Shown piece by piece: positions 15,102-30,967 of a stretch of DNA of 38,201 bases. Source of the stretch: Chitinispirillaceae bacterium (GTDB taxonomy: Bacteria > Fibrobacterota > Chitinivibrionia > Chitinivibrionales > Chitinispirillaceae); NCBI GenBank assembly GCA_016929595.1, contig JAFGIN010000069.1, positions 1 through 38,201 on the forward strand, written 5' to 3'. The notes beneath the pieces were generated by a model that was not told the origin of the DNA, searched no databases, and saw nothing but the letters and a program-made list of their open reading frames with translations. How positions within the stretch are numbered: position 1 is the first letter of the stretch; the number at the start of each line of letters is the position of its first letter. A program made the translations under genes and the position numbers.

Positions 15102-15755
15102 ATGATTGTATTTAAAAAAACCCTTCAAATTTCGTTATTTATAATGTTCATTTCTGCCGTTTCTCTGATAGCTCAAACGGTAGTTAAACCCCGAAAAACA
15201 CTTGCATTGCTTCAACTAAGTGTACACGGTCTTCCCTCTGGAACGGCCGCTGAAATTTCAGATGGAATAAGTTCTGAATTGAAAAAGCTGGGTGTTTTTG
15301 AGCTGATCGACCCAATGACGATCAAGAGTGTCCTTCAAGATCAGGAGATGCTGAGCGCTGGAATCTGTAACCAGAGTTCCTGTGCAATTCAGATCGGTCA
15401 GTTACTTGGAGCCGATCGGGTAGCAATCGGAAGCATCAGTTTCATCAATGAAACCTATTCTGTCAACATTCGAACAATAGAGATCAACACCGGTAAGATA
15501 ATTAATGATGTCAATGAGTATTACAAAGATAAACCACGTTACTTCCAAACCGATCTTATACCTGTTGTCGCAGCAAAAATGAGTGACACACCAGTACCAC
15601 TGATTAAAAAACGAAAAAAACCAATCGTAAAAGTTATCATTATCGGAGCAGCGGTCATAGTTGCAGTGCCCGTTGCCTACTTCGTCTGGAAAGGTATTTC
15701 TCACGAAGATGAACACACACCACAGACAGAGGTCCTTGTGCAATGGAAACAATAA
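15102..15755 (+). CDS. Secreted CsgG/LpoB-like protein with C-terminal membrane anchor
   Basis: The product is 217 aa. A signal peptide (residues 1-25, ending ISAVSLIAQ) is followed by a domain of about 120 residues of the CsgG/LpoB/TolB-N type: LALLQLSVHGLP, SDGISSELKKLGVFELID, a CNQSSCAIQIGQLLGADRVA segment and SIRT-like strands (YSVNIRTIEINTGKI). A basic patch (LIKKRKKP) precedes a membrane helix at about 176-200 and a short tail. This family binds outer-membrane lipoproteins or forms secretion pores, but the exact role is unknown here. GGGGGG lies 7 to 12 bases before the ATG. The gene overlaps the downstream FN3 lipoprotein by 13 bases, so the two are coupled. A longer paralogue lies at 29615-30967. 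Confidence 0.75.
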   Translation: MIVFKKTLQISLFIMFISAVSLIAQTVVKPRKTLALLQLSVHGLPSGTAAEISDGISSELKKLGVFELIDPMTIKSVLQDQEMLSAGICNQSSCAIQIGQLLGADRVAIGSISFINETYSVNIRTIEINTGKIINDVNEYYKDKPRYFQTDLIPVVAAKMSDTPVPLIKKRKKPIVKVIIIGAAVIVAVPVAYFVWKGISHEDEHTPQTEVLVQWKQ

Positions 15756-16978
15756 AAAAAACAGTTCTCTTTCTCTTACTGACAGCATGCACACTCTTTT
15801 TCATTCAATGCTCTCAGGAGCAGGCAGCTCCACTCAACCCCGAAACATCAGTGATGGCTGATGTTGTCTGGAGATCTCAGGGGATTGAACTCAATCCTGC
15901 AGCTGTAGAATTTGTACGCATAACAGTTACTTCATCGTGCGACAAACCTACCACTAATGTTTTCCCGTATTCGATGAGTTCCGTTGCAGCTGCAATGGTA
16001 ACAACAGGATGCGTCTTTTCTATTCTGTTTGAGGGGCTGGGCTTTAACAATCTTTTACTCTACAAAGGTGAAGTTTTAAACATTCCAGCAACAGGACCGA
16101 CTGCATCAGTTGCAATCACTGCAGATGCCTGCACTCCGACACCTCCGGACAGCCTGAAAGCTGCACCTGCAGGACGAAAGATTATCCTTTCCTGGGTAAA
16201 TCGCGCAAATAATCAGGCCGGCTATATCATCAAACGTGCATTCTGGAGCAATAAAAACCACTTGATTCTTGACACTGTAACAGAATGTCACTATATTGAT
16301 ACTTTTTCTATCACAAGACAAGGTCCTTATTACTACCAGGTCTATTCCTACAATGCAATTGGAATTTCCACAATCGCAGCTACTATCGATAGTTTTACTC
16401 TTAGTAAAAATACACGACCTTTTTTTATTTCAGACACTACAGATATGAACTCTGTTGCAGTTATCGGTATCCCATACATTGACACGGTAAGATTTGCTGA
16501 CGATGATCCTGGTGACAGTCTTTCACTATCGCTGTTTTCAGCACCCAAAGGAGCTACCCTTCAAGATTCTATAATTACCTGGCTCCCCGACAGCAGCCAG
16601 GCCGACTCACTCTGCACCATCGTTACAATAGTCAGTGATCAGGATGATGCAAAAGATACTCTTATCTGGTCCGTTAACGTAACAACACTTGCCCTGATAT
16701 CACTTCCTCCCGAATTTTCTGTAAACGAACTCAGTCTCAATGCCGCTGTGACCTTAGGCTCAGAGTATATAGATAGTCTTAAAGCCACCGACCCTGAAAA
16801 TCAACCTCTGACATACAGATTACTCACCGCACCCACATCAGCAACAATAGACAGTAGCCTGGGAATTGTCCGATGGGTAGCAGACTCCCTCTACAAAATA
16901 AATTTTACAGCAATTGTATCTGATAACACAGACAAGTCAGATACAGTTTCATGGAGTGTCACGGTATCATCGGAATGA
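15743..16978 (+). CDS. Lipoprotein with FN3 and cadherin-like (He_PIG) domains
   Basis: The product is 411 aa. The signal region METIKKTVLFLLLTACTLFF contains a canonical lipobox LTAC (Cys16), and a second possible one, FIQC, ends at Cys23. A beta-rich N-terminal domain (residues 35-125) is followed by one FN3 domain (about 130-215, with the PYYYQVYSYNAIG strand) and two He_PIG/cadherin-like domains (ending LIWSVNV and TVSWSVTVSSE). It is probably anchored in a membrane and exposed as an adhesin or structural protein. It starts inside the 3' end of the CsgG/LpoB-like gene, so both are made together. No catalytic residues are visible. Confidence 0.8.
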   Translation: METIKKTVLFLLLTACTLFFIQCSQEQAAPLNPETSVMADVVWRSQGIELNPAAVEFVRITVTSSCDKPTTNVFPYSMSSVAAAMVTTGCVFSILFEGLGFNNLLLYKGEVLNIPATGPTASVAITADACTPTPPDSLKAAPAGRKIILSWVNRANNQAGYIIKRAFWSNKNHLILDTVTECHYIDTFSITRQGPYYYQVYSYNAIGISTIAATIDSFTLSKNTRPFFISDTTDMNSVAVIGIPYIDTVRFADDDPGDSLSLSLFSAPKGATLQDSIITWLPDSSQADSLCTIVTIVSDQDDAKDTLIWSVNVTTLALISLPPEFSVNELSLNAAVTLGSEYIDSLKATDPENQPLTYRLLTAPTSATIDSSLGIVRWVADSLYKINFTAIVSDNTDKSDTVSWSVTVSSE

Positions 16979-17303
16979 TTATAAATAAGCATCATTGTTT
17001 AAATTTACCCACACTAAGTACCCCCTCTCCATGAATATGATCACAGGAAAACGCATCCATTTTTCTCTTATCGAGAAACGAGGAAGGCGAATAAACTGGT
17101 TGCATTTAACTGACAAGTGTCAAAGATAAAAAAAAGAACAAGTTATAAGTGATTATATTTATGAAATGGGGGTACTAAACCCTGTTCATCCATCAGAATA
17201 TCTACGATCCGAATCCTGGACATTATCGTTATGGCTTTTAAGACCATTTTTAAAATTTTTGAATGTATCTTACTAACCAGGTACTCGTTTGAAAGGATCG
17301 CTA
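16979..17303. other. Gap between the FN3 lipoprotein and the GH30 gene
   Basis: This is 325 bases without a gene. No strong terminator follows the lipoprotein stop. A weak complementary pair, GGGGGTAC near 17168 and GTACCCCC near 17018, is far apart. The end carries the GH30 ribosome binding site AAAGGA at 17292-17297. Nothing else was recognised. Confidence 0.4.
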
Positions 17304-18983
17304 ATGAAACACCCCTTCCAGAAATACTTACTTATCGCTATTATTTTTTTACGATTTCCACCTGACTTATCATCAGTAACGGTCACAATCGACCCATCAA
17401 TCAAATACCAGCATTTTGAAGGTTGGGGTACAAGCCTTTGCTGGTGGGCCGTACAGGCCGGCAAATGGAGTAAAAAGAACCGGGAGGCGTTGATAGGTGC
17501 CATTGTTGACCCAGATACCGGTCTTGGTTATAACTGTTTCAGATATAATATTGGCGGTGGTGATCAACCGGGACATACACACCTCAGTGAGGCACGTGCA
17601 GTTCCTGGATTCAAAACAAGTGAAAACGGACCGTACGACTGGACTGCTGATCAAAACCAGAGGAATATTCTGCTTGCAATAGCATCGAGAGGAAAAAATC
17701 TGATCTTTGAAGCATTCTCAAATTCACCCCCCTGGTGGATGACTATCAGTGGCTGTGTTTCAGGAAATACCAATGGAGCTGACAATCTCAAACCAGCATA
17801 TTTTAGTGCGTTTGCCGAATACCTCGCAACAGTTGTTAAACAGTACAAAGACACATGGGGAATCACGTTCAGAACAGTAGAGCCATTCAATGAACCATCA
17901 TCAGGTTACTGGAAAAAAAACGGAGGCCAGGAAGGATGCGGATTTAAAAATCGTCAATCGCAAATGGTAAAGGAGCTTGGAAAGCAGCTCGTGGCAAAAG
18001 GGCTCTTCCCCGAAACAACAGTCAGTGCTGCGGATGAAACATCACTGGAGCACACAATTACGGCCCTTAAATCCTATGATGACAGCGCTTTTTCGTTTCT
18101 CTCACAGATCAATTCACACTCCTATGGAGGCTGGAAATTCAGAAAAACTGTAGATTCACTGGCAAAAGCCCGGAAAAAAATACTCTGGCAGTCTGAATCC
18201 GGCCCCTTGGAAAAAGGTAATGATCCATCAGATATTGCAATGTGGATGTCACATGTGATTATTCAGGATTTACGAACAATGAAAGCCAATGCCTGGATTG
18301 ACTGGCAGGTTGGTGATCCAGTCGGAGACTGGATGACTATTCAGCTGGACCACAGCAGACAGATATTCAAATATACAAAACGATACTACATGCATGCGGC
18401 ATTCAGCCGCTTTATACGCCCGGGATCACGGATAATAAGCAGCAGCGACACCAACAGCATTGCAGCACTTGATTCTTCAACAGGGGATCTTACAGTAGTA
18501 CTAAGAAACAATGCTAATTCCAATCAGACCTATTCGATTGACCTCTCTAAATTCGGTCGCATCGGCACAACCGCACACCTCTACCGGTTTTCTTTGCCCG
18601 GAAGCCTTAAAAAGGAGACGGATATCACTATAAGCAATAAGTTGCTTTCATTTACCGCTCCAAAGCTGTCACTTACCACATGTGTAATTCCGATATCTGC
18701 TACACAAATTAAAAATCAGGGATCCTGTAAAGTCACGGGTGAGCCGATGCTGTTAAACAGCATTCACAACGGGTGGCTCAGGCTTTCATCTGTATTAACA
18801 ACACCTTTTACACTCTCAATCTACGATTGCAGGGGAAGGTTGATTTTTTCAAAAAATGAATCTGGCGCTGGAAATACAAACAGTATTTATATCGGAAATC
18901 ATATAGTGGCCGCCGGTATGTACTTTTTTGAGCTGAAAAGAGGTACAACAATCGAACAATTCAGTTATATCATTAAGAAATAA
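17304..18983 (+). CDS. Secreted GH30-family glycoside hydrolase with T9SS-like C-terminus
   Basis: The product is 559 aa: signal peptide (1-24), a GH30-type (beta/alpha)8 catalytic domain (about 25-380), a beta-sandwich (about 385-475) and a C-terminal domain. Clan A residues are visible: acid/base E197 in VEPFNEPSSG and nucleophile E298 in ILWQSESG. FEGWGTSLCWWA and YNIGGGDQPGHTH resemble endo-beta-1,6-galactanase-like GH30 members; beta-1,6-glucan or another beta-glycan is possible. The C-terminus (SIYDCRGRLIF to AAGMYFFELKRG to SYIIKK) resembles a type IX secretion sorting domain. ATG 17304 is preferred over a TTG at 17289 because AAAGGA sits 6 bases before it. The gene stands alone and points tail-to-tail at the Calx-beta lipoprotein gene. 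Confidence 0.88.
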   Translation: MKHPFQKYLLIAIIFLRFPPDLSSVTVTIDPSIKYQHFEGWGTSLCWWAVQAGKWSKKNREALIGAIVDPDTGLGYNCFRYNIGGGDQPGHTHLSEARAVPGFKTSENGPYDWTADQNQRNILLAIASRGKNLIFEAFSNSPPWWMTISGCVSGNTNGADNLKPAYFSAFAEYLATVVKQYKDTWGITFRTVEPFNEPSSGYWKKNGGQEGCGFKNRQSQMVKELGKQLVAKGLFPETTVSAADETSLEHTITALKSYDDSAFSFLSQINSHSYGGWKFRKTVDSLAKARKKILWQSESGPLEKGNDPSDIAMWMSHVIIQDLRTMKANAWIDWQVGDPVGDWMTIQLDHSRQIFKYTKRYYMHAAFSRFIRPGSRIISSSDTNSIAALDSSTGDLTVVLRNNANSNQTYSIDLSKFGRIGTTAHLYRFSLPGSLKKETDITISNKLLSFTAPKLSLTTCVIPISATQIKNQGSCKVTGEPMLLNSIHNGWLRLSSVLTTPFTLSIYDCRGRLIFSKNESGAGNTNSIYIGNHIVAAGMYFFELKRGTTIEQFSYIIKK

Positions 18984-19066
18984 GCGTAATTATTCAGATA
19001 CATAGACTTCAAATGTTTACAGGACCGTTCGTTTTGATTCCGTTTGCGGGAGAGCTCGTGTCCTGA

Positions 19067-22000
19067 TCAATTGCTGATCACTCTAATCTCCGTATTTTTC
19101 TTTTCCTCTAATATGTAAGCTCTTTTCAAATCCGAAACACCTGTTATTACCAGACGTATTGATTCGATAGCTTCACTCTTTTCATCATCAACAATTTTGA
19201 TCCCGAGACTTTTATCGGTCTCACCGGGGTTGAAAGTAACCTGATTCATCTCAGGTATTGTCATCGTATAATCAGATCCATATTCGGCTGTCGAGCCATC
19301 TGTTGTAAAAGTGACCGTTATCGGAACGTCTGAGGGTCCAGTCAGCATGATATTGCAATATGGAGTACTGTAATTTTCTTCATCGGCCGACTGAAATTGA
19401 CTTGCAAAAAACGCCCCTACTTCGTTTTTAAGAATATAAAACTTACACTCTGTGAAACTTCCCGGTCTGACCACGCTATTTGGAGATTCTAATTTCAGCG
19501 TAAAAAATTCATCATTTAACTCTGGTAGAGTATCATCGAAAAGTTCTATGGTAATCAATTTGCTTATTTCACCAGTATTAAATACAATACTATCTGATGT
19601 CTCGGCTATTCGAAAATCAACCCCTGTTGTTGCTGTTGTTTTTTCCGGAATTATCGAAAATTTAACAACTACTGTGGAATCGACTGTTCTATCAAGCCTT
19701 ACCGGAACAGTCATCTGTATATCCTGTTCCTTCCATGACACTTCTGCGGAAGCAAAAGAAAACTGAAAAGGTGTGTCATCATTCATAATGGTGTAGACAA
19801 ATTTTGCCGAATCCTTCGGAAGAGCGAATGCAGTCTCCGAACGCAATCGTATAGTAATCTTTTCATTCTCCTCCTGAATATTGTCATCAATGATATCTAT
19901 CTCAATCTGAGCCTGTGTTTCTCCTGGAGCAAATATCAATCTATAATCAGTCGATCCCAGAACAAAATCAGACAACGTATCGGCATCGGTTCCCGACCAG
20001 ACAATTTCATAATACAACACCAATTCAGTCTGAAGTGCTTTTGAAATTTTTACTTCTGCTACCAGATTTTTCCTGCCCTCAAGACCTTCCGCTTCTGTTT
20101 CCACAAAACTATAGGTAACATTGTCATTATCAATAATCTCTCCCACAAAAACAGGATCGGATAAATCACACACCTTTATACTGTCATTACCGGTAATCCT
20201 GATCTCAAATCGTTCTACATATTCAGGAATTTTGTCATCTGTAATAGTAATATTTATTGACGCACTTGTATCACCATTTCCATCAAAGGTAAATACATCT
20301 GACAATACAGGTCCAAGGTCAGCAGCACTTGCAGCGTTCATTTCATTCGGGAAAGTAATGGTATAGGGGATGCTTACTTTAAAATCAAGTGGATTGCTTA
20401 ATGCAATACTAACTCTGGCACTATTAAAAAAATTCATATTTTCATGAAACTGTGCAGTATTCTGCTTCCATCGAACACAGGCAAGTATTTTTTTCATAAC
20501 CCTGAAATGCACATCCATCGAATCCTTAAAATTGAGACTATCAGTGACCATAACCCGCAGTATTCTCAATCCTGTATCTGCAACTGAGGGTACCCAATTA
20601 ATCATAGTGTCGGTACTGTTGTGAATGTTTTTCTCTCTTTCACCAACAAAAGCTGCTGAGTAGGTAAGCGCCCCTGTTCCGGTAAGCGGTACAGTGCTCA
20701 GTGCAACCTTGAGAGGCTCACCTACGGTCACTGTATCAGGAAATTTGATTCCGTTTTTTAACAACTTTACAGGTACCGCGCCTGTTCCTTTAACTATTAA
20801 TGTAAATTCCGCATCTATATACTCCGTACGATCAGTTGCATTTAAATACACTTTATATTGCCCGCTGTCAGAGAGCTGCGGATACCAGGTCACATGCCCG
20901 CTTGTCGCGTCCAGAAGCGTATCAATACTGCCACCTTTTATCATCATTGTTACAAACAGAGAGTCCTGATCAGGATCTGAAACCACAATGTCAAATACAC
21001 TCTCCTCACCCGCAGTAACAACCGTCGTATATTCAGGTGTTTTTACCCATTGCGGTGGACGATTATATTTTACATAAAAAGAATAGAACACAGCATACCC
21101 GGCACTGTCCAGAGCCTTTATCTCAACATGTGTATAGTTTTTTGTACGTGGAATTATTACACTGGCTGTAAAAAACAGACTGCCGGGTTCTTTTTCCGCC
21201 TTGTTTCCATTTACATAAACGAACAATTGATTACTGTTATCCACTGCATCGATATCCAGTTGGAGTGTGTCAGTCCGGCTGATTATTGAATCAACAACCG
21301 ACTCATCATTACACCTGATACTTCTGATCTGAGGAGCTATGGTATCGATATATGCCGGATTATAGTAAACATGAAAGTCAGCAACATCATATTTCGAACC
21401 GATCATAAGTGAATCAGCATACAGTTCCAGCGTTATGTGATTTGAATAGTCAGTCAATGGAACATTGAAAGAAAATGTTGCCTTTTTTGAGGTGATTACA
21501 GCGCTATCAGTTACTTTCCCGTTTTTAAGTGCAAGAAGATACAACGTATTGTAGTGCTGGTTATTAATAACTGTACCACGGACATCAGCGACTGATGATG
21601 CGATTGTAATGCTGTCCTCAGCAGGCGTATAGATACTAATTGATGGATTCACTTTGATGAAATGGACTAGCCAGATCTTATTTACAATGTTGCCTTTGTT
21701 ATCTGTTACCAGAACGTCCATTTTAAAAGGAGAATTAATAGTATCAAGATTGTATAGATACCTGCTTAATACAAATGATTCTCCGGCCCTCAGACTGTCA
21801 TCAAAGGGAATGTTATTCACTCTGGCACTTTTTAATTGATTGGCACCGGTAACTACCACAGTGAATTTAAATTCAGAATTTTTTGAATACACAGAATCTG
21901 CAACAATTGAGTCGTGAAGACAGAAAACTGACAGCTGCGATTCCGTATCCACAGGACTGCTGATCTGAAAAATATATGACGGCGAACGATAACCAGACAG

Positions 22001-22588
22001 ATCCTCAACATACAGCTCACCAGAACGGCCCGTGAAGTGATTTGTTAATTTGATACCGACAGAAGCTCTGGTTTCTTTGACAATTGTCTCATTGTGAAGA
22101 TTCCAGACATACATTACCTGATCATCAACTGGCGGGGTACTTAGAAACAGAGAATCGCCAGCTTTTCCACTGATACTTTTCTGTCTGAGCGGTGAAACCG
22201 CATACAGTGAACAGCTGTCAACAACAACATCCCCATTGTTGATATAGGAAACAAGACGAATTGTCTGTTTCCCGGGTATAAAAAAAGAGTATTGAAATGA
22301 AAGCTCACCAGTGATATCACCCTGCCTTACTACGGATGGTAACTGACCTTGAAGTCTGTTGTTGTCAATATGCACTTTAATACTGTCAATATGCTCTCTG
22401 AGATACACATGCGCAAGAAATCTCTGTGTAGAGAAAATTTCAACGGTATCGGAGTTCAAAGTATTTATACTGACAATTTTTGCAATCGAATCCGCTTTAT
22501 TAAGAAATGGATTAGACTGGTTGCTGCAGGTAATCACGATGAGTAAAAGTACCACACAAACCAATACTGCCATCATATTTCTTTTCAT
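19067..22588 (-). CDS. Large lipoprotein with four Calx-beta domains
   Basis: The product is 1173 aa. The signal VLLLIVITC places the lipid on Cys21. The N-terminal half has several Ig-like beta domains, then two cadherin/He_PIG-like domains (from about 510, WVKTPEYTTVVTAGEESVFD, to about 700). The last 470 residues form four Calx-beta domains, marked by repeated acidic motifs such as ITDDKIPEYVERFEI, IIDDNIQEENEKITI, LFDDTLPELNDEFFTL and IVDDEKSEAIESIRL. These loops are typical calcium sites, so the protein is probably a calcium-stabilised surface stalk or adhesin. AGGGG lies 11 bases before the ATG. It is on its own, convergent with the GH30 gene. No enzyme motif is visible. Confidence 0.85.
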   Translation of the reverse strand: MKRNMMAVLVCVVLLLIVITCSNQSNPFLNKADSIAKIVSINTLNSDTVEIFSTQRFLAHVYLREHIDSIKVHIDNNRLQGQLPSVVRQGDITGELSFQYSFFIPGKQTIRLVSYINNGDVVVDSCSLYAVSPLRQKSISGKAGDSLFLSTPPVDDQVMYVWNLHNETIVKETRASVGIKLTNHFTGRSGELYVEDLSGYRSPSYIFQISSPVDTESQLSVFCLHDSIVADSVYSKNSEFKFTVVVTGANQLKSARVNNIPFDDSLRAGESFVLSRYLYNLDTINSPFKMDVLVTDNKGNIVNKIWLVHFIKVNPSISIYTPAEDSITIASSVADVRGTVINNQHYNTLYLLALKNGKVTDSAVITSKKATFSFNVPLTDYSNHITLELYADSLMIGSKYDVADFHVYYNPAYIDTIAPQIRSIRCNDESVVDSIISRTDTLQLDIDAVDNSNQLFVYVNGNKAEKEPGSLFFTASVIIPRTKNYTHVEIKALDSAGYAVFYSFYVKYNRPPQWVKTPEYTTVVTAGEESVFDIVVSDPDQDSLFVTMMIKGGSIDTLLDATSGHVTWYPQLSDSGQYKVYLNATDRTEYIDAEFTLIVKGTGAVPVKLLKNGIKFPDTVTVGEPLKVALSTVPLTGTGALTYSAAFVGEREKNIHNSTDTMINWVPSVADTGLRILRVMVTDSLNFKDSMDVHFRVMKKILACVRWKQNTAQFHENMNFFNSARVSIALSNPLDFKVSIPYTITFPNEMNAASAADLGPVLSDVFTFDGNGDTSASINITITDDKIPEYVERFEIRITGNDSIKVCDLSDPVFVGEIIDNDNVTYSFVETEAEGLEGRKNLVAEVKISKALQTELVLYYEIVWSGTDADTLSDFVLGSTDYRLIFAPGETQAQIEIDIIDDNIQEENEKITIRLRSETAFALPKDSAKFVYTIMNDDTPFQFSFASAEVSWKEQDIQMTVPVRLDRTVDSTVVVKFSIIPEKTTATTGVDFRIAETSDSIVFNTGEISKLITIELFDDTLPELNDEFFTLKLESPNSVVRPGSFTECKFYILKNEVGAFFASQFQSADEENYSTPYCNIMLTGPSDVPITVTFTTDGSTAEYGSDYTMTIPEMNQVTFNPGETDKSLGIKIVDDEKSEAIESIRLVITGVSDLKRAYILEEKKNTEIRVISN

Positions 22589-22895
22589 TAATTTGCAAAC
22601 CCCTGTTACACTGAGTAGTTAAATTTTAGTTAAGCGCATAACATCCAACCTATTAATAATCAAGAGATTATACATATTGTGCCGTCAAAATTTCATCATA
22701 ATTTTTAAATAAATGGTGGGGTATTCGAATAATTAGTGGAATTTTAATGGTATATCGTTTCATATTTTACCACGATCTGATAGTTTAACAGTAATTAAAT
22801 TAACAGATTTTTCCAATTTTGATTTTGAACAGAGTATCAGAGCAACAACTGATCCTTTTCCCCTTTTTTACCTGATGTAAGATTGCAAAGTATCG
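22589..22895. other. Gap between the glycerate kinase and Calx-beta genes
   Basis: This is 307 AT-rich bases. It should hold the Calx-beta gene promoter (minus strand), where TTGATT near 22664 and TTATGC near 22643 form a weak candidate pair. No convincing terminator follows the glycerate kinase stop. Nothing else was recognised. Confidence 0.35.
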
Positions 22896-23744
22896 CTAAG
22901 ATACCAGAAACCCTGTTTCATCAAAGAGTATTGCCGCTTCTTCCCACCCATCACCACGACAACCGAAACGTCCTATTACTTTCAGTCCAAGAGCACGGGC
23001 CTTTCGGGCAACAACGACAGGCAGTTTTCCTTCAAGGGATGAACTGTCGAGTCGTCCTTCTCCGGTAATTACAGCATCGCACCCCTGACTTGCAGCTGTA
23101 AAATTGAGTGAGTTCAATATACCTTCTGCGCCATCAATAAGCCTTGCACCCAGTGATAACAGTTTCGCACCTATTCCCCCTGCAGCACCAGTTCGTGGTC
23201 CGCGGGGAAGGCCAAGTTTCAGCAACCGTTCTGTAAGCAGTGGAATATCCTTTTCACGGGCACCTTTCTGGGGAGCGAAAATTCTTGCAGCATCTGCAAG
23301 GTCAGTGATCACATCACAGAACACCGTCGTTTCCGGCAGCGACATCACTGGCCAGTCACGCCCCCCATCAACAGTTGCACTTCCACCCAGCCCTATCCAG
23401 ATGCGCGGTACATGCTGAAACTGTTTCAGAACAACTCCCAAACCACGACTTGATGCTGCAACCGGATCGGGGTGATCAAGCCCGGCAAGACCAATTACCT
23501 TTGCACATTCAACTGCAACACCTCCATCGTTAAACCGCAATACCGGGACTGAACGAATATTTCCAAAAGGATCGGGAGCGGATGTATACTCAGTTGTACC
23601 TCCCAATACAAATTGCAGACATTCAAGAAACCCGTCTCCCCCATCACTGAGAGGAAGCAGCCGATCACCAGGGACTGCGAAAAATCCCGCAGCCTCAAGC
23701 GGACTCATTGTTCCTTTAAACGCGGTCGGCGCAACAAGATTCAC
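22896..23744 (-). CDS. Compact glycerate kinase (GlxK/GarK family)
   Basis: The product is 282 aa, versus roughly 370-380 for ordinary glycerate 2-kinases. Family motifs are present in order: APTAFKGTMSPLEAA, LSDGGDGFLE, GLGGSATVDGG, GAAGGIGAKLLSLGARLIDG and ITGEGRLDSSSLEGK. The segment between the N-terminal motif and the DGGDG motif, and the C-terminus, are shorter than usual. It would phosphorylate D-glycerate with ATP in the cytosol. The start is a GTG at 23744 with only a weak GAG site upstream; no ATG fits without losing the conserved N-terminal motif. It begins 9 bases after the stop of a surface lipoprotein gene, so it is probably cotranscribed with it, an unusual partner. Activity of so short a version is uncertain. 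Confidence 0.82.
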   Translation of the reverse strand: MNLVAPTAFKGTMSPLEAAGFFAVPGDRLLPLSDGGDGFLECLQFVLGGTTEYTSAPDPFGNIRSVPVLRFNDGGVAVECAKVIGLAGLDHPDPVAASSRGLGVVLKQFQHVPRIWIGLGGSATVDGGRDWPVMSLPETTVFCDVITDLADAARIFAPQKGAREKDIPLLTERLLKLGLPRGPRTGAAGGIGAKLLSLGARLIDGAEGILNSLNFTAASQGCDAVITGEGRLDSSSLEGKLPVVVARKARALGLKVIGRFGCRGDGWEEAAILFDETGFLVS

Positions 23745-23753
23745 ACAGATTTC

Positions 23754-25493
23754 TCAACGTGTACTATATTTAATTATCGGTAACTCATTAGAACCTGAAA
23801 AAGAGACTTTGTTCCCATTACGATCTGTAATGTTAGAAAAGTCAACCACAATGGAATCGTATGCTGCATTTTTTGAGGCCGGAATGACAGCCTGAACCAC
23901 TAATTGTGTCAGCGTTGACCAGCTGCAACGAACAGAGTCTTTTGGAAGCACATAGGTAGAGTCACCATAATAGGAATATGATGCTTCCTTTACTGTGAAC
24001 GTTGGCTTTTTTGTTGTATCCATCGGCTCTGAGAACCTCAGGGGAGAATATAATTGACGCAGCAAACTCGCTGATGATGCACTGTTATTGCAGTCGTATA
24101 CGGTGTAGACAGTTCCTGCCGAACTGGACGTAATTTTTGGCCTGGTATTGTCTCTGAGTTTAAGTATCGTCGCGTTTGCAGGATCAGACTTTGTTGAATC
24201 ATAGACTCCAAGCACCATCACCTCAAAAGTATTACCTTCTATAAACTTTCCGTAAGTGGATAACACTATGGATGTATCATGTACTAACTCACTGGCAAAA
24301 TAAATCGACCAGATAGAATCGCTACTCGCTCTTGCATAAATTTCATATCCCCGTACACCAGGTAGTTTCGACCATTGAAGCCTTACTGAAGCAGTGCCAT
24401 AATCAATTGTTTCCGGACTGATTAACCGCAAATTTTTAACATCAGTTTCTGCACTGGAAAAAGCAACTTTAAATGTGATATTTCTATTTTTCAAAAGCAT
24501 CTTTCCAGATATACTGTATACAGTTCCAACTGTCACTGTATACATTTCTCCCGGTTGCCACACACCATCAAACGGCTTCAAAGAAAGAACTGTTACTGTT
24601 TTATTCCATTTCTGACTATGAAGAACTCTTCCGGGAAGTGAAGCGCCATTTATGTACGTACCGTTAGGATTGTACCGTGATGTGTCCACAGGTTCTGAAA
24701 AAGTAATCGAGAATGCGGTAGAACCTGTAATAGAATCGGAATTATCCGAAAGAATGGTAAAATGTCCATTGATCTCAGGTGTTAGAATTATCGGACGGAA
24801 ATTATTTGTGTCTCCTGCAGCCTTACTATATATGATTTCACCGTAAACCCTTCCATACAGCACGCCTCCGACCTGATGGTTTTGAGTTATTAATCTTCCC
24901 ACTGTAAATTCAGGTATACTGTCAAAGAAATAACTGCCATCAGGTAAAGTTTTTACACTCCGGACTGGTTGCAGAAAGTCTACAGTTTCAACTTCTTCCC
25001 ATCCATCGTAAACAGCTATTGATGGTGATAATTCCAGTTCTACAGACATCTGACTGATTGGGTAAAGCGCATTTTCTTTCTGGTAATAGATTTTTCCACG
25101 AACGACAGTTCCCTTTCTATACATCAGCAATGACATGGAAGTCTGTAATGCCAGAGGAGTGGAGTAACTGCTATCAGCATGAATAATTAGCTCCGATACA
25201 ACAGGTTCATACCCGGCAAGGGAAGCACTGATTACATGTGAACCAATGCACAGGTCATCAAATCGGGCAACTCCATTAACATTTGTTGTACAGCTTCCGT
25301 TTCCTTCAATGGTGACAAGGACACCTTTTACAGGGGCCTCATTTTTGACATTCTGAACCTTTATGAATGCTGATGCGGTCGCCCCATCCTGAAATTGAGT
25401 TCCTGAAACCGGATTGTCAGCCTCATTGCAATTCAAAAGTATTCCTGCACCCACTGCTAAAACGGAGCAATATATCCCTTTAATCATTCTCAA
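23754..25493 (-). CDS. Lipoprotein with carboxypeptidase-regulatory-like, Big_5 and FN3 domains
   Basis: The product is 579 aa. The signal ends in GILLNC with lipid on Cys22. Residues 40-115 are a carboxypeptidase-regulatory-like sandwich (PVKGVLVTIEGNGSCTTNVN, then GSHVISASLAGYEPV). A second such strand set follows, then a bacterial Ig-like Big_5 domain (ITGSTAFSITFSEPVDTSRY, YTVTVGTVYSISG), an FN3 domain (VRLQWSKLPGVRGYEIYARA) and a second Big_5-like end (PLRFSEPMDTTKKPTF). It is likely an exposed structural protein. The start is taken as TTG 25493, which is 7 bases after AAAGGAG; the ATG at 25487 is 13 bases away. It lies 12 bases after the FN3-array gene and 9 before glycerate kinase, in one operon. 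Confidence 0.82.
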   Translation of the reverse strand: MRMIKGIYCSVLAVGAGILLNCNEADNPVSGTQFQDGATASAFIKVQNVKNEAPVKGVLVTIEGNGSCTTNVNGVARFDDLCIGSHVISASLAGYEPVVSELIIHADSSYSTPLALQTSMSLLMYRKGTVVRGKIYYQKENALYPISQMSVELELSPSIAVYDGWEEVETVDFLQPVRSVKTLPDGSYFFDSIPEFTVGRLITQNHQVGGVLYGRVYGEIIYSKAAGDTNNFRPIILTPEINGHFTILSDNSDSITGSTAFSITFSEPVDTSRYNPNGTYINGASLPGRVLHSQKWNKTVTVLSLKPFDGVWQPGEMYTVTVGTVYSISGKMLLKNRNITFKVAFSSAETDVKNLRLISPETIDYGTASVRLQWSKLPGVRGYEIYARASSDSIWSIYFASELVHDTSIVLSTYGKFIEGNTFEVMVLGVYDSTKSDPANATILKLRDNTRPKITSSSAGTVYTVYDCNNSASSASLLRQLYSPLRFSEPMDTTKKPTFTVKEASYSYYGDSTYVLPKDSVRCSWSTLTQLVVQAVIPASKNAAYDSIVVDFSNITDRNGNKVSFSGSNELPIIKYSTR

Positions 25494-25505
25494 AGCAATA
25501 CTCCT

Positions 25506-28500
25506 TTATCGACGTGAACCGGGAAGTGTGTCTGATGGCGCACTTTCTCCTGCTGCGTTCCTTGAAGTAACATAATACCAGTATTTATCAGGAAATGTTT
25601 TTGACACGTAATCATAATACGAAGTGCTGGTTATACTGTCAATTACAGCGAATGGTCCGGCCTCATTCTCTGATCTATAAATTTTATACGAATAGCCCGA
25701 AAGTGTGCCGGAAGGCATAGACCAGTACATGTAAATGTACGAAGAACTATTGTTATTCACTTGAAATGATTCAGGTATCGGTGGTACCGAAGTTGGGGAA
25801 CGATACCCCCTTACATATCCACTACTCAGAGAACTCTCCTGGCCAAATGAACCGACAGATTTACACTTGTAATAATACATAGAATCTGACGGTACAGTAT
25901 CTATAAAGAAAGTGTCGGCAACCGATCCGACCAGTACCGAATTTGTGAAATCTGTGGATCTGCTCCTGTACAATTTATAGGATTTCGCATCACTTACCTT
26001 TCTCCAGTTTACAGATATTACCCCGACAGATCCAGTGCTTGCTGATCCCATTACCGGTAATGCGGGGCTTGACAGTCGGCCACTTAAATAACTACTCAGT
26101 TCACTTTCTCCTTTATTGACCGAAGATATTTTGTAATAATAAATATCTGGTGAAGTAACTGAATCAACATAAGAATAAGCTACCGTAGAATCAAGAATTG
26201 TAAATGGCCCTCCAGATGAAATCGCACGATAGATTTTGTAATAAACCCCGCTTACAGTACTGCCACTCCAGCTTAAATGAAGGTAATTTATATACGCTGT
26301 GATCCTTATTGAGCTTGGAAAGGCCAGCCCCCGACCACTTACCGATTCTGTACTGTAAGAGCTCGCCATCCCATTGACAGTTAGTTGTCGCACAAAGTAA
26401 AAATAGGCTAGACCTGCTGAAACAGTAGTGTCAAAAAACGATGTGTCGCTAACGGTGTCGAGTACCGTTTTACTACCACTGAAATATGATGCCCGGCTCA
26501 CTACATATGATGTTGCACCGCTGCTCTTTTTCCATGTAAATAAAATTCCTTTTGGATAGATATCATAGGACGCACTCACTGCTACCGGAGCAGAAGGTGA
26601 AGCTGCATATCCAATTGCATAACTGGAACGCGGTCCCTCACCCACACTGTTGAGAGCACTGACTTTGTAATAGTAATTTCGGGTTAAGGAAACACTATCG
26701 TTAAAATAAAATACCTCTACAGTATCCAGAGGTTCATATAAACCTAATGATGATGTCGATCGGTAAACAATATATGAAGTTGGAGTCGAACCGGATGAAT
26801 TCGGTGTCCAGGAAACACGGATGTACCCTTGATATGTAGTTGAAGCAGAGACGGTTGGTGCAAGTGGTTTTACAATTACGGAAACCTTGACTACCGGACT
26901 TCCGGTAGTAATAAATGAACCGGATGAAAAATTTGCGCGAACCTGATAGTAATAATTTCCGGAACGGGTTAACGAAATATCCTTGAAATTGGTATCTGAG
27001 GTAGTAGCTATGCTGCTCACAATAGAATCGGCGCGCTCTGAACGGTATATCGTGTAGTATGATGCAGAACTTACTTTCGGCCACCAGAGTTTCACCGTGC
27101 TGTCTGAAAAATTACCATTCAAAGCAGCAGGACCCGGTAAAAAATTTACTGTCAATAACAGTCCAGATTTACTTTCCCCGGAATCACTGGATGAAGTTAC
27201 CCGGTAATAATAGGTGCCACTGGTCGTAAAAACCGAATCTGACATAAAACGTTCCTGCGTCGAACCAATCAGTGAGAAGTTACTCTGTCCACCGTATGAG
27301 CGGTAAACTTTGTACAGCTTCGCTTTACGAACAGAACTCCAGGTAACCATCGCTCTGTCGTTCTGATTGTATATGGTTCCGCTTGATGGGGGTAGAAGTA
27401 TGGATCCCTTGACAGTTGTACTTCGCATTCCGATTCTCGTCTTGAGACCGGCGCAAACCTGATAATAAGCACTGGTTACATTACCAGGAAGAAGAGTATC
27501 AATATACACAGGATTTGTTACCGTATCTATCGGGGTGAGTCCAGTGGATGACAATGAACGATATACGATATAGTATTGCGCTTGTGCAACACTGTCCCAT
27601 CTGACATAAACCTTAGACGGATGATTATCGATTGCATATACATTCTGAGGACTTCCAAACGTTTGAACAAATCCCATTGTATAATCAGACTGTTTCCCGA
27701 CCTTCATAGAGTCCCCAATGACTGCAGCAACCCGGTAATAGTAGTAATTATCTGTAGTTATTGTAGAGTCATTATAGGTGTTTGTATCAACAGTAGCGAT
27801 TTGAAGGTATGGACCGGTTGCGGTAACAGCGCGATATATTACATATTTACTGCTTCCCTGAAACTCCCGCCATTGCAGCATAATATGCGAAATATAGGAT
27901 CCAAGTGATGCAGTTAGATTGGAGGGTGCGTTATCAGCCATTGTCCATCCATTAACAGCGGGAGAAAATTCACTTTCAATCCTGCCAATCCGGCAGCTCA
28001 CCCTGTAATAACAACTGCTGTCCATTCCGACAACATCATTGAACACTGTTGCAGCTGTAGAGCAGGCACGTGTATACGAACCTTTTTCTGTTGCTGATTT
28101 GTATAGAAAATAGCTATTTGCAGTGGGAACAGAATCCCATGTAACAGTTATTTCAGAAAGACTCGTGCCCTGTGAAGCAGCCAGATTACCCGGAATAGCG
28201 ATCGATTTCAGTGTCCCTGATGCATAAGCGCTCTTGAGCGATTCGACCCCGTTGGAATCCACTGCTGACACTTTATAATAATTTACAATTCTTGTAACCA
28301 GTGAATCGGTAAAAAAGTTATCAGAACCCGACACTGTGGCAACACGTTCATACGGCCCCTCAGAGAATACAGCCTTGTAGATGTTATATGCTGCAGCATT
28401 CCTGACAAGAGACCAGAATACCATAACTCTGTCGTTGATAACCCCGATTGTCGCGGTCACATCACCCGGCACACCAATACTGTCAATAATCCACCCTTTA

Positions 28501-29450
28501 ACAGTAGCCCCCGCCCCCCCGGTGTACCCGCTGTCATTAATCGATGCAATCCGATAATAAAGAGCGCCCTTACTGACATTACTATCTTTAAACACTGTAT
28601 CCGTAATGACACCGATGCTTGTAAACAATCCTTCAGGTGCAGCTGATCGATATACTCTATATGAACTGGCTTCCACTACAGGTGTCCAGTTTAAAAGAAC
28701 GTAATCCGGATAGACACCCTTTGATGCAAAACATGTATCGGGAGGTGAGATCGAAGTAATTTTACGCAATTCCAAAATTGAATCGCTGTATGCAACACCG
28801 TATTGATTAACAGATCCAACACGGTAACGGTGTGTATTGTAATCGGAAAGAATATCGGTACAGACAGTACTCTCCCGCAATAAGACAAGCTTCTCCCCCT
28901 CTGCTGTTGTTCTTTGAATACTGTATTCCTGCGCAGTTGCAACTGCATCCCATTGCAGCATCGCCCCCTGTAACGTACCTTCACCCCGAATTCCTGATGG
29001 CGGCAGAGGAGGAATTCCCGCAGGTGTTGTATCTGTAAAAGATTCGGAATTACTCTCTCCATTGCGGAAATAGCCAGTAAACTTGAAAATACAGGGTCGA
29101 TTAACTTCAAACCCGTCTAAAGTAAATACAGATTTTCCACTGATGTTGATCTGTTGAAGCGAATCTGCATCAAGGCCATAATTAAGAGTGATATATTCAT
29201 ACGTTTGCATCAATGAGCACTGAAGCGATCCGGTAGTATCCCGGAAAGAAAAATTGCTCCACTTTTGTGAAACTGCAACATATGATGTTTTAGGAGATGA
29301 CAGATCGTCTGGCTTCTCTATCAGCGGATCAAGCGGATTCATTCGCCCCTTGACATCACCATCCCGCATCGTACAATGAAAAACCAGCAATATTGCAGGC
29401 AAACTATAGAAAAAGATCCTGACAAATGTTTTTGTGTTAAATGATTTCAT
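25506..29450 (-). CDS. Giant lipoprotein made of thirteen FN3 repeats
   Basis: The product is 1314 aa. The signal ends LLVFHC with lipid on Cys26. A short region at 35-135 precedes thirteen FN3 domains of about 85-95 residues covering the rest of the chain. Each has a conserved tryptophan strand (such as VRWDSV, VTWSSV, LHLSWSG), a KVYRS-like strand and a YYYKVSA-like strand. The protein ends directly after the last FN3 domain (SDTLPGSRR) with no sorting tail. It would form a long stalk on the cell surface. GAGGG lies shortly before the ATG. It follows the CsgG/LpoB-like gene by 164 bases on the same strand and precedes a second lipoprotein by 12 bases. FN3 arrays of this kind are common in polymer-degrading bacteria. 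No enzyme domain is present. Confidence 0.88.
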   Translation of the reverse strand: MKSFNTKTFVRIFFYSLPAILLVFHCTMRDGDVKGRMNPLDPLIEKPDDLSSPKTSYVAVSQKWSNFSFRDTTGSLQCSLMQTYEYITLNYGLDADSLQQINISGKSVFTLDGFEVNRPCIFKFTGYFRNGESNSESFTDTTPAGIPPLPPSGIRGEGTLQGAMLQWDAVATAQEYSIQRTTAEGEKLVLLRESTVCTDILSDYNTHRYRVGSVNQYGVAYSDSILELRKITSISPPDTCFASKGVYPDYVLLNWTPVVEASSYRVYRSAAPEGLFTSIGVITDTVFKDSNVSKGALYYRIASINDSGYTGGAGATVKGWIIDSIGVPGDVTATIGVINDRVMVFWSLVRNAAAYNIYKAVFSEGPYERVATVSGSDNFFTDSLVTRIVNYYKVSAVDSNGVESLKSAYASGTLKSIAIPGNLAASQGTSLSEITVTWDSVPTANSYFLYKSATEKGSYTRACSTAATVFNDVVGMDSSCYYRVSCRIGRIESEFSPAVNGWTMADNAPSNLTASLGSYISHIMLQWREFQGSSKYVIYRAVTATGPYLQIATVDTNTYNDSTITTDNYYYYRVAAVIGDSMKVGKQSDYTMGFVQTFGSPQNVYAIDNHPSKVYVRWDSVAQAQYYIVYRSLSSTGLTPIDTVTNPVYIDTLLPGNVTSAYYQVCAGLKTRIGMRSTTVKGSILLPPSSGTIYNQNDRAMVTWSSVRKAKLYKVYRSYGGQSNFSLIGSTQERFMSDSVFTTSGTYYYRVTSSSDSGESKSGLLLTVNFLPGPAALNGNFSDSTVKLWWPKVSSASYYTIYRSERADSIVSSIATTSDTNFKDISLTRSGNYYYQVRANFSSGSFITTGSPVVKVSVIVKPLAPTVSASTTYQGYIRVSWTPNSSGSTPTSYIVYRSTSSLGLYEPLDTVEVFYFNDSVSLTRNYYYKVSALNSVGEGPRSSYAIGYAASPSAPVAVSASYDIYPKGILFTWKKSSGATSYVVSRASYFSGSKTVLDTVSDTSFFDTTVSAGLAYFYFVRQLTVNGMASSYSTESVSGRGLAFPSSIRITAYINYLHLSWSGSTVSGVYYKIYRAISSGGPFTILDSTVAYSYVDSVTSPDIYYYKISSVNKGESELSSYLSGRLSSPALPVMGSASTGSVGVISVNWRKVSDAKSYKLYRSRSTDFTNSVLVGSVADTFFIDTVPSDSMYYYKCKSVGSFGQESSLSSGYVRGYRSPTSVPPIPESFQVNNNSSSYIYMYWSMPSGTLSGYSYKIYRSENEAGPFAVIDSITSTSYYDYVSKTFPDKYWYYVTSRNAAGESAPSDTLPGSRR

Positions 29451-29614
29451 ACATCCCTCTGTGTACCGCCATTCCCCACCGTTACGGTTTCATTTTCTAA
29501 CAGATTAGTTTAAAAAATAGAATTAATTGCCGTTTTGTCTTTAACCAGAATCGGACAGCTCCTTTGCGCGCGCTATACGTGATCTCATCGTCAAAAAAAA
29601 CGCACAAATCAGGT

Positions 29615-30967
29615 TTAAAACTTAATCGAGATTCCGCAGGCTGCAAGACCGAGACCACTGAGAACATACAATAAATTCCGCTGCTGCATTTTTTTGTCGG
29701 TCTTTTCTGTCTTGTTGATGTATTGCTGATAAGCAACCCCGGTTTGTTCTGCACTGGCATTCATATAGTTTTTGAATAATACTTTCTCATCTTTGAGATT
29801 CTCTTTTACTTTACTATTAGTTACAATTCCCCCGGTAATCCCGCAAAGCGCTGCCACTCCAAACCCGGTTATACGTATTCTTTTGGAAATTTTAGTTCTG
29901 TTATCTTTTTTTAATGCCCCCGTTGGTACTGAAGGACCTTCTGCCTGAAAAGCGAGAGGTGATGATTGTTCATTCTCAGAACCTGTATCTACAGATGTTT
30001 CCGCAACTGCAGTTGCCTGCGCAACTGAATCAGCTGATTCAAGAGTATCTGCATCTGCCAATTCAACGACTTCAACGTCACTTGATGATACTGCAATGGA
30101 AGAATCCTGCTGTACTGGCTCAAGTGTTTCACTTTCGACCTGCATAGTTACATCATCAGTGGCTGGAACCTCCTGTACCAGACTCCCTGATTGTCCAACA
30201 CGTTCCACAGCAGGAGATTGCACACTCTGCTCAAGAGGCTCAACAGGCTGTGGCTGCTGAGCCTCTGGAAGATCCTGTGCCCAACTGTCAGGAAGACTAT
30301 TTACAGCATCAGTACCGGCTGTATCAGCAGTTTCCGGACTTCCCTGTGAATCTGACACTTCCGGCTGATCACCTGAGCTGACAGCAGATGCTGTAGTGCC
30401 AGAAGAAGAGTTCTGTATAGTCTGACCTGAAACTCCGCCTTTTGCTTCCGACTTTTTGGCATCACTCAATATTCGATCTGTAAACTCACGTATCTCCGCT
30501 GCCGATTCCTGCAAATTTTTATTAAAAGAGTCCATCTGTACAGAAATCAATGCATTTGCGGGAACATCAACAATATGCAGCTCTACAACAAGTTCTGAAG
30601 ATGAGTCGGAATAGAGCGTTCCATGCATAACATACCGGGTACCCACCTGCTTTACCAGTTCAGTCATGCATGCTGAAGTAGTGCATGCTTCAAGAGAGCC
30701 AAATCGTGAATCCAGTATAATACTTCTCAGATATCGGGTGCTTACAGCATTATGCCCTCGCATTCTGATCACGTTTATAACTTCATCCATGAACTGCTCG
30801 CACGTTGCATCCAGTTGCTGTGTTGAACGCAACGGCAAAAACACAAAAGACAGTGGAGCAGTATCCCGCGATCTCTCCTGAGCTATCAACGACAATCCCG
30901 TAGTAGTTAAACCAAAAACTGCGGCAGCTACAAACATTCTTCTGAAATAATATAATGGTGTTCTCAT
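29615..30967 (-). CDS. CsgG/LpoB-like secreted protein with long acidic linker
   Basis: The product is 450 aa from ATG 30967. A signal peptide (1-29, ending GLSLIAQ) is followed by a CsgG/LpoB-type domain (about 37-165: SFVFLPLRSTQQ, EQFMDEVINVIRMRG, CTTSACMTELVKQVGTRYVM, VELHIVDVPANALIS). A Ser/Glu/Gln/Ala-rich linker (about 175-360) leads to a basic patch (KKDNRTKISKRIR) and two hydrophobic stretches at the C-terminus. The layout matches the 217-aa protein at 15102-15755, including the Cys-x4-Cys segment, but with a long linker inserted before the membrane part. It sits first in the FN3 lipoprotein operon. Starts at 30982 and farther upstream lack a ribosome binding site; the one chosen has only GAAGAG. 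Function is unknown, and a role in assembling or anchoring the downstream lipoproteins is inference. Confidence 0.75.
   Translation of the reverse strand: MRTPLYYFRRMFVAAAVFGLTTTGLSLIAQERSRDTAPLSFVFLPLRSTQQLDATCEQFMDEVINVIRMRGHNAVSTRYLRSIILDSRFGSLEACTTSACMTELVKQVGTRYVMHGTLYSDSSSELVVELHIVDVPANALISVQMDSFNKNLQESAAEIREFTDRILSDAKKSEAKGGVSGQTIQNSSSGTTASAVSSGDQPEVSDSQGSPETADTAGTDAVNSLPDSWAQDLPEAQQPQPVEPLEQSVQSPAVERVGQSGSLVQEVPATDDVTMQVESETLEPVQQDSSIAVSSSDVEVVELADADTLESADSVAQATAVAETSVDTGSENEQSSPLAFQAEGPSVPTGALKKDNRTKISKRIRITGFGVAALCGITGGIVTNSKVKENLKDEKVLFKNYMNASAEQTGVAYQQYINKTEKTDKKMQQRNLLYVLSGLGLAACGISIKF

Follow-up and report, generated by a model that had tools for sequence, protein, structure and literature searches.

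A recurrent pairing of CsgG/LpoB-like genes with surface-protein genes in Chitinispirillaceae and related bacteria

Introduction

Does a small exported protein, whose gene twice precedes a lipoprotein gene in one short stretch of DNA, serve that lipoprotein? The question is raised by 38,201 nucleotides from a Chitinispirillaceae bacterium (assembly GCA_016929595.1, contig JAFGIN010000069.1, positions 1 to 38,201; here the window), in which gene A (15102..15755, +) is followed on the same strand by one lipoprotein gene (15743..16978, +) and gene B (29615..30967, -) by another (25506..29450, -). A first-pass annotation had taken the two loci for copies of one module, in which a CsgG/LpoB-type protein serves an FN3-domain lipoprotein, perhaps in assembly, export or anchoring. 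Fibrobacterota and related bacteria attach by their surface to the plant polymers that they degrade and, to our knowledge, the route by which their lipoproteins reach the outer cell face is an open question, on which a repeated adaptor/surface-protein pair offers a direct handle. As set out below, the pairing is very probably real and selected, it goes with the membrane part with which the small protein ends, and the type of this tail tracks the type of partner.

Two Architectures of One Superfamily

Gene A is an open reading frame of 217 residues encoding a signal peptide, a TolB-N/LpoB/CsgG-type domain (15186..15608, +; residues 29-169, the range of the structure alignment), a Cys-x4-Cys segment (15366..15383, +; C89 and C94, CNQSSC) and a C-terminal part (15630..15752, +) made up of one predicted transmembrane (TM) helix (residues 177-197), an acidic linker and the tail ...TEVLVQWKQ. 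About 20 residues extend beyond the single helix and end in V-x-V-x-W (the W tail). The ATG of the partner gene lies within the codons for ...Q-W (caATGGaa), and the two genes overlap by 13 bases (15743..15755, +). Gene B encodes 450 residues counted from its ATG (the longest frame opens at GTG 31129), with a signal peptide, a FlgO/CsgG-type domain, a Cys-x4-Cys segment (C95 and C100, CTTSAC), a linker rich in Pro, Ser and Gln, and a TM hairpin of helix-loop-helix form whose last residue is the C-terminus of the protein; its lipoprotein gene begins 164 bases downstream. The hairpin is kept across the B alignment, and in relatives of B the linker is usually filled by one or more PEGA domains.

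The first-pass annotation had the two loci, their layout, the 13-base overlap and both Cys-x4-Cys segments right. A C-terminal membrane part is indeed common to both proteins, but it consists of one helix and a tail in A and of a hairpin in B, and the single repeated module gives way to two different architectures.

No similarity between A and B was found by pairwise BLASTP, and hhalign, which aligns the two Cys-x4-Cys segments, gives E 0.0024 with a probability of only 12%; the family profile grown from A, however, detects B at E 5e-6. A profile match without pairwise similarity places the two proteins, as judged from sequence, in one superfamily as distant members on separate branches, and each of two tail classes is represented by one protein in the window. 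All 28 aligned A-type sequences keep both Cys residues, which makes the pair a family hallmark rather than a chance likeness of A and B. Every one of them also matches Pfam CsgG at E <= 0.01, and, A itself apart, 22 of the remaining 27 sequences end in a V-x-V-x-W-type tail. At least four further superfamily members, lacking a tail of this kind, are encoded in the same genome.

The match of A to Pfam CsgG (PF03783) is weak and above the curated cutoff (E 4.8e-5, 23.2 bits vs 20.8); B has no match to Pfam CsgG and passes the Pfam FlgO cutoff marginally (E 7e-5, 22.7 and 23.1 bits vs 22.6). The AlphaFold model of A (predicted local distance difference test, pLDDT, 82.8) retrieved TolB, LpoB, PelC, FlgT and CsgG in the Foldseek/VIA matches. 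In structure alignment the best folds reach Z 12-13 over about 120 residues (TolB N-domain, FlgT, LpoB and PelC), and the TolB N-domain 6pnv superposes with Z 12.9 over 122 residues at 2.4 A, in keeping with an N-domain fold. The fold of A is thus already known; the clan to which it belongs comprises adaptors of the periplasm and of the outer membrane.

Recurrence of the Pair in Related Genomes

Of 61 genomes searched, drawn from the same taxonomic family, order and phylum, 42 contain the protein family, which was not found in any searched genome of family f8. Named matches of a wider scan, made with a 10-row subset of the 28-row A alignment, belong to Fibrobacterota, Chitinispirillaceae, Chitinivibrionales, Candidatus Raymondbacteria, UBP2, Edwardsbacteria, KSB1, Calditrichota and Marinimicrobiota. 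Some 120 loci were retrieved together with flanking sequence and the next same-strand gene was classified by script, lipoboxes being recognized by a hydrophobicity heuristic and one partner (L070) being assigned by eye.

A lipoprotein gene comes next in 22 of 23 loci with a strict W tail and in 12 of 14 with a hairpin. The one-TM members with a short tail as a whole, of which the strict W-tail proteins are part, are followed by a lipoprotein gene in 26 cases, by another gene in four and by nothing in two. Members that lack a TM segment precede a lipoprotein gene in only 2 of 50 loci, one of which (L079) encodes a W-tail protein whose helix falls below the cutoff. When all TM-bearing classes are pooled the contrast is 42/60 vs 2/50 (Fisher p 1.2e-13); as background, lipoproteins make up 59 of 309 same-strand neighbours in the same loci (19%). 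All aligned A-type partners keep the lipobox Cys, and an A-type gene that has lost the W tail (L055) has no partner. B's own pair is conserved as well: a genome of another genus (G006) has a B homologue and, starting 27 bases behind it, a gene for a homologue that matches the 1314-residue lipoprotein over its full length (32% identical across about 1,300 residues). The first-pass expectations that both small proteins belong together and that the genes stay side by side in related genomes are borne out, and the link between small protein and lipoprotein is much better supported than it was by two loci, even if the interpretation as a whole holds in part. One locus (L063, 3792-4805) was considered as an A protein fused to an extra protein and rejected: the A frame stops inside the TM segment and unrelated sequence follows, possibly through a rearrangement or an assembly join on this short contig.

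Other arrangements were encountered in the same superfamily. A third class (L076, L078, L114, L115, L122, L123), of about 450 residues with a beta-barrel-like C-terminus ending in NFYF or NFYY, repeatedly precedes a secreted protein of about 1000 residues that starts FNHPEI.W..V.T.HF. Members of a fourth class (L095, L099, L111, L128, L131), of about 335 residues and without a TM segment, repeatedly precede a conserved 310-residue protein (MKVTIDNVELILSHP...IGQ.E.LRQLLACW). Tandem CsgG-type genes, 21 and 34 bases apart, occur in an unclassified bacterium and in Calditrichia (L194, with two adjacent open reading frames, and L197).

Tail Type and Partner Type

Of the 22 W-tail pairs, 17 have the partner ATG among the codons around the terminal Trp (ATGG), so that the two frames share 7-16 bases; such overlaps recur across genera. 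The possibility that the tail is a by-product of the overlapping start site was ruled out, since four W-tail pairs without overlap (L067, L069, L071, L079) still keep the W motif, which is thus a feature of the peptide. Donor-strand exchange was also considered, given the resemblance of V-x-V-x-W to the first strand of the partner N-domain (x-I-x-W-K), and was dropped; scores for strand mimicry showed no excess over other partners and shuffles (13.36 vs 13.03 vs 13.34).

Proteins of A-like architecture with a Pro-rich tail (PLPPxRP, PPGPPSN) were found in UBP2, Edwardsbacteria, Marinimicrobiota and Calditrichota, and the gene that follows them mostly encodes a large secreted protein without a lipobox. 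A sorting domain of type A of the type IX secretion system (T9SS) scores over the cutoff in six of the seven Pro-tail partners tested (L177, L184, L185, L200, L201, L248), the C-terminus of the seventh (L247) giving no such match, and in none of 25 lipoprotein partners, a set that includes four from beta-like tails without Trp. Beta-like tails are paired with lipoproteins in KSB1 (L192) and at two fibrobacterial loci (L210, L244). Both kinds of pair coexist in one fibrobacterial genome (G041), where the proteins encoded behind two Pro-tail genes are T9SS-sorted (23.7 and 34.7 bits vs 23) and those behind four W-tail genes are lipoproteins. Tail type therefore tracks partner type: V-x-V-x-W or hairpin goes with a lipoprotein and Pro-rich with a type IX-secreted protein. 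The genome of the window itself has a T9SS (SprA and 66 sorting-domain matches).

Partner Proteins and Neighbouring Genes

The partner of A has 411 residues, with the lipobox Cys at position 23, a conserved N-terminal beta-sandwich (34-125), an FN3-like domain (136-218) that is predicted from homologues and from the fold model (pLDDT 83.4), and two He_PIG Ig domains matched by Pfam; a fold search with this model returned generic Ig and cadherin chains at low TM-scores and was uninformative for the N-domain. The partner of B, of 1314 residues, carries an N-terminal NPLDP motif and FN3-like repeats, for which Pfam gives FN3-like models only (GH85_C, tissue factor).

Elsewhere, W-tail partners have the lipobox in common and most have an N-terminal beta-sandwich of about 90 residues, the remainder being variable. 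The 25 lipoprotein partners contain divergent InlB-B repeats (8), fn3 (8), Flg_new (7), FISUMP (6) and He_PIG (4) domains, as well as CshA repeats, WD40, laminin-G and FGE-sulfatase, and the 15 hairpin-class partners fn3 (8) and FGE-sulfatase (5), besides Ig, kelch and FISUMP. The FN3 lipoprotein named in the first-pass annotation is accordingly one form of partner among several: both partners in the window have FN3-like domains but FN3 is not constant, and the partner is not always a lipoprotein, T9SS cargo taking its place outside the phylum and in part inside it. Several partners carry FISUMP or FGE-sulfatase domains, which are C-type-lectin-like and known targets of diversity-generating retroelements.

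The two members of the pair vary together. Distances between A-type domains correlate with distances between partner N-domains (Mantel r 0.40, none of 5000 permutations as high; r 0.37 after a coarse kinship correction), and where close paralogues occur within a genome (L071/L079, L067/L069) their partners are likewise each other's nearest.

Among the neighbours, a third gene lies behind the B pair (23754..25493, -), 12 bases after the FN3 gene, and encodes a lipoprotein with CarboxypepD_reg and Big_5 domains; it is not conserved behind homologous pairs and is therefore probably outside the unit. Directly 3' of the A pair is a GH30-type glycoside hydrolase gene (17289-18983, +) with a weak T9SS sorting-domain match, and between both pairs stands a gene (19067-22588, -) for a probable lipoprotein of 1173 residues with four Calx-beta domains and no adjoining adaptor gene.

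Proposed Function and Alternatives

The reading that we prefer, with about an even chance of being correct, is that the small protein acts as a periplasmic adaptor, anchored in the membrane, which is made along with a single surface protein and serves that protein only. It would be exported by Sec, its TolB-N/LpoB/PelC-type domain with the Cys pair would lie in the periplasm, and the C-terminal membrane segment would anchor it, while translational coupling would keep the synthesis of adaptor and partner in step. Most likely the adaptor would bind its own partner or else the envelope machine in charge of it, and would thereby bring this one protein to the cell surface or keep it there. Support for a dedicated adaptor comes from the pairing of W-tail and hairpin members with lipoproteins, the invariant lipobox Cys of the A-type partners, the overlapping frames, the W motif that persists without overlap, the co-variation of the two genes, the lack of a partner at L055, the contrast of tails within G041, and the fold, which belongs to a clan of adaptors in which CsgG and HfaB serve surface adhesins.

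Several observations weigh against this reading. Gene adjacency would also be kept by co-expression alone; one locus (L058) retains the W tail and has no partner gene, only a 21-codon frame at the usual start; and tail type is largely confounded with phylum, the contrast within a genome coming from G041 only. The charges that flank the C-terminal TM segment (mean +3.5 before and -2.4 after, in the same order in 44 of 44 A-type and Pro-tail proteins) are the reverse of what the positive-inside rule gives for an inner-membrane protein with a periplasmic N-domain: a cleaved signal peptide should leave the domain in the periplasm and the tail in the cytoplasm, opposite to that rule. Either the tail is outside the cytoplasm, for instance by outer-membrane insertion, or the positive-inside rule is overridden. 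A wider proposal, which we consider tentative and unlikely, is that these proteins form an undescribed class of dedicated surface-protein escorts in several related phyla, TolB-N-like, membrane-anchored and with a short tail that would match the export route of the partner (beta-like V-x-V-x-W or TM hairpin for lipoproteins, Pro-rich and PLPPxRP-like for type IX cargo) and possibly lie on the outer side of a membrane.

Both proteins could instead act in the same process, such as polymer attachment, without contact, the overlap setting the ratio of their synthesis. Overlapping genes are common in bacterial operons, and partner domains as diverse as these would be unusual if each adaptor recognized its partner; however, the restriction of the pairing to TM-tailed family members, the association of tail type with partner export class and the co-variation of A with the partner N-domain all speak against mere co-expression, which we regard as unlikely.

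A role like that of LpoB or of Pal/Tol, as a bridge between the surface protein and either the peptidoglycan machinery or the Tol system, with action on the wall rather than in export, would agree with the closest folds (LpoB and the TolB N-domain) and with a weak match to the LpoB model. This match reaches only 27.4 bits against the equivalog cutoff of 110.55 (TIGR02722), the proteins are not lipidated, and a general wall function would hardly call for numerous copies in one genome that each have a separate partner, so such a role appears improbable. Quite improbable, too, is a sensor or quality-control function, in which the condition of the surface protein would be monitored by the periplasmic domain and signalled by the tail to the cytoplasm: the usual cleaved-signal topology would place the conserved tail where it could meet a regulator, but the loci read show no regulator gene that regularly accompanies the pairs, and the order of charges opposes a cytoplasmic tail. 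That the lipoprotein is secreted through a genuine channel of the CsgG kind is very improbable, as the Pfam CsgG match and the example of the CsgG relative HfaB, which acts together with surface anchor proteins of the holdfast anchor complex in Caulobacter (PMC6707917), are set against an alpha-helical TM segment in place of a lipobox and against about 140 residues that span about 227 of CsgG, with no space for pore hairpins.

A dedicated adaptor would explain the many unassigned CsgG/LpoB-like genes of these genomes, to which automatic annotation could wrongly give a role in curli secretion or wall synthesis. Several independent pairs occur naturally in many of the genomes, and tail variants and orphan genes can serve as controls.

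Comparison With Known Systems

The window proteins are not a CsgG channel, LpoB or TolB. For a CsgG relative serving surface adhesins there is precedent in curli and in the holdfast anchor complex (PMC6707917). CsgG itself is a lipidated nonameric beta-barrel pore, whereas the A-type domain has neither lipidation nor pore-forming insertions and is joined to an alpha-helical TM segment: the signal peptide of A has no Cys before residue 89, its predicted secondary structure contains no transmembrane beta-hairpins, and residues 28-171 of the model span CsgG 30-256, which leaves the pore insertions absent from A.

LpoB, which binds and activates the penicillin-binding protein PBP1B, shares with A the fold (Foldseek E 5.8e-7, Z about 12) and an exported periplasmic domain, but is an outer-membrane lipoprotein, A being without a lipobox. 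TolB carries a C-terminal beta-propeller, whereas in A about 48 residues follow the domain, with the TM helix and the tail, and the protein then stops. The same fold is found in PelC (Z about 12), a lipoprotein dodecamer docked on PelB and part of the outer-membrane export complex for the Pel exopolysaccharide (PMC12141448); A is not PelC, as it has no lipobox, its neighbours are the surface lipoprotein and GH30, and no polysaccharide export genes stand directly beside the pairs. FlgO and FlgT are related through the Pfam FlgO match of B and through the alignment of FlgT to the A model (Z 12.5), but differ in C-terminal architecture and genetic context; there are no flagellar genes among the identified genes of the window or at the loci, and the signal peptide of B lacks the lipobox Cys of the FlgO outer-membrane lipoprotein.

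T9SS type A sorting uses shuttle proteins that engage the C-terminal domains (CTDs) of the cargo (PMC12618676). There too a surface protein is linked with a delivery factor of its own, and the Pro-tail partners carry a CTD; unlike their cargo, the W-tail partners are lipoproteins without a CTD match (0/25). In the literature searched on CsgG with PEGA or on Fibrobacterota lipoproteins, where coverage of subscription journals is thin and the evidence correspondingly weak, no description of this pairing was found. Set beside LpoB and TolB, the family has as its own features the C-terminal TM segment, the Cys pair and a surface protein of its own encoded downstream, and its pairing with tail-specific partners seems undescribed in the papers searched.

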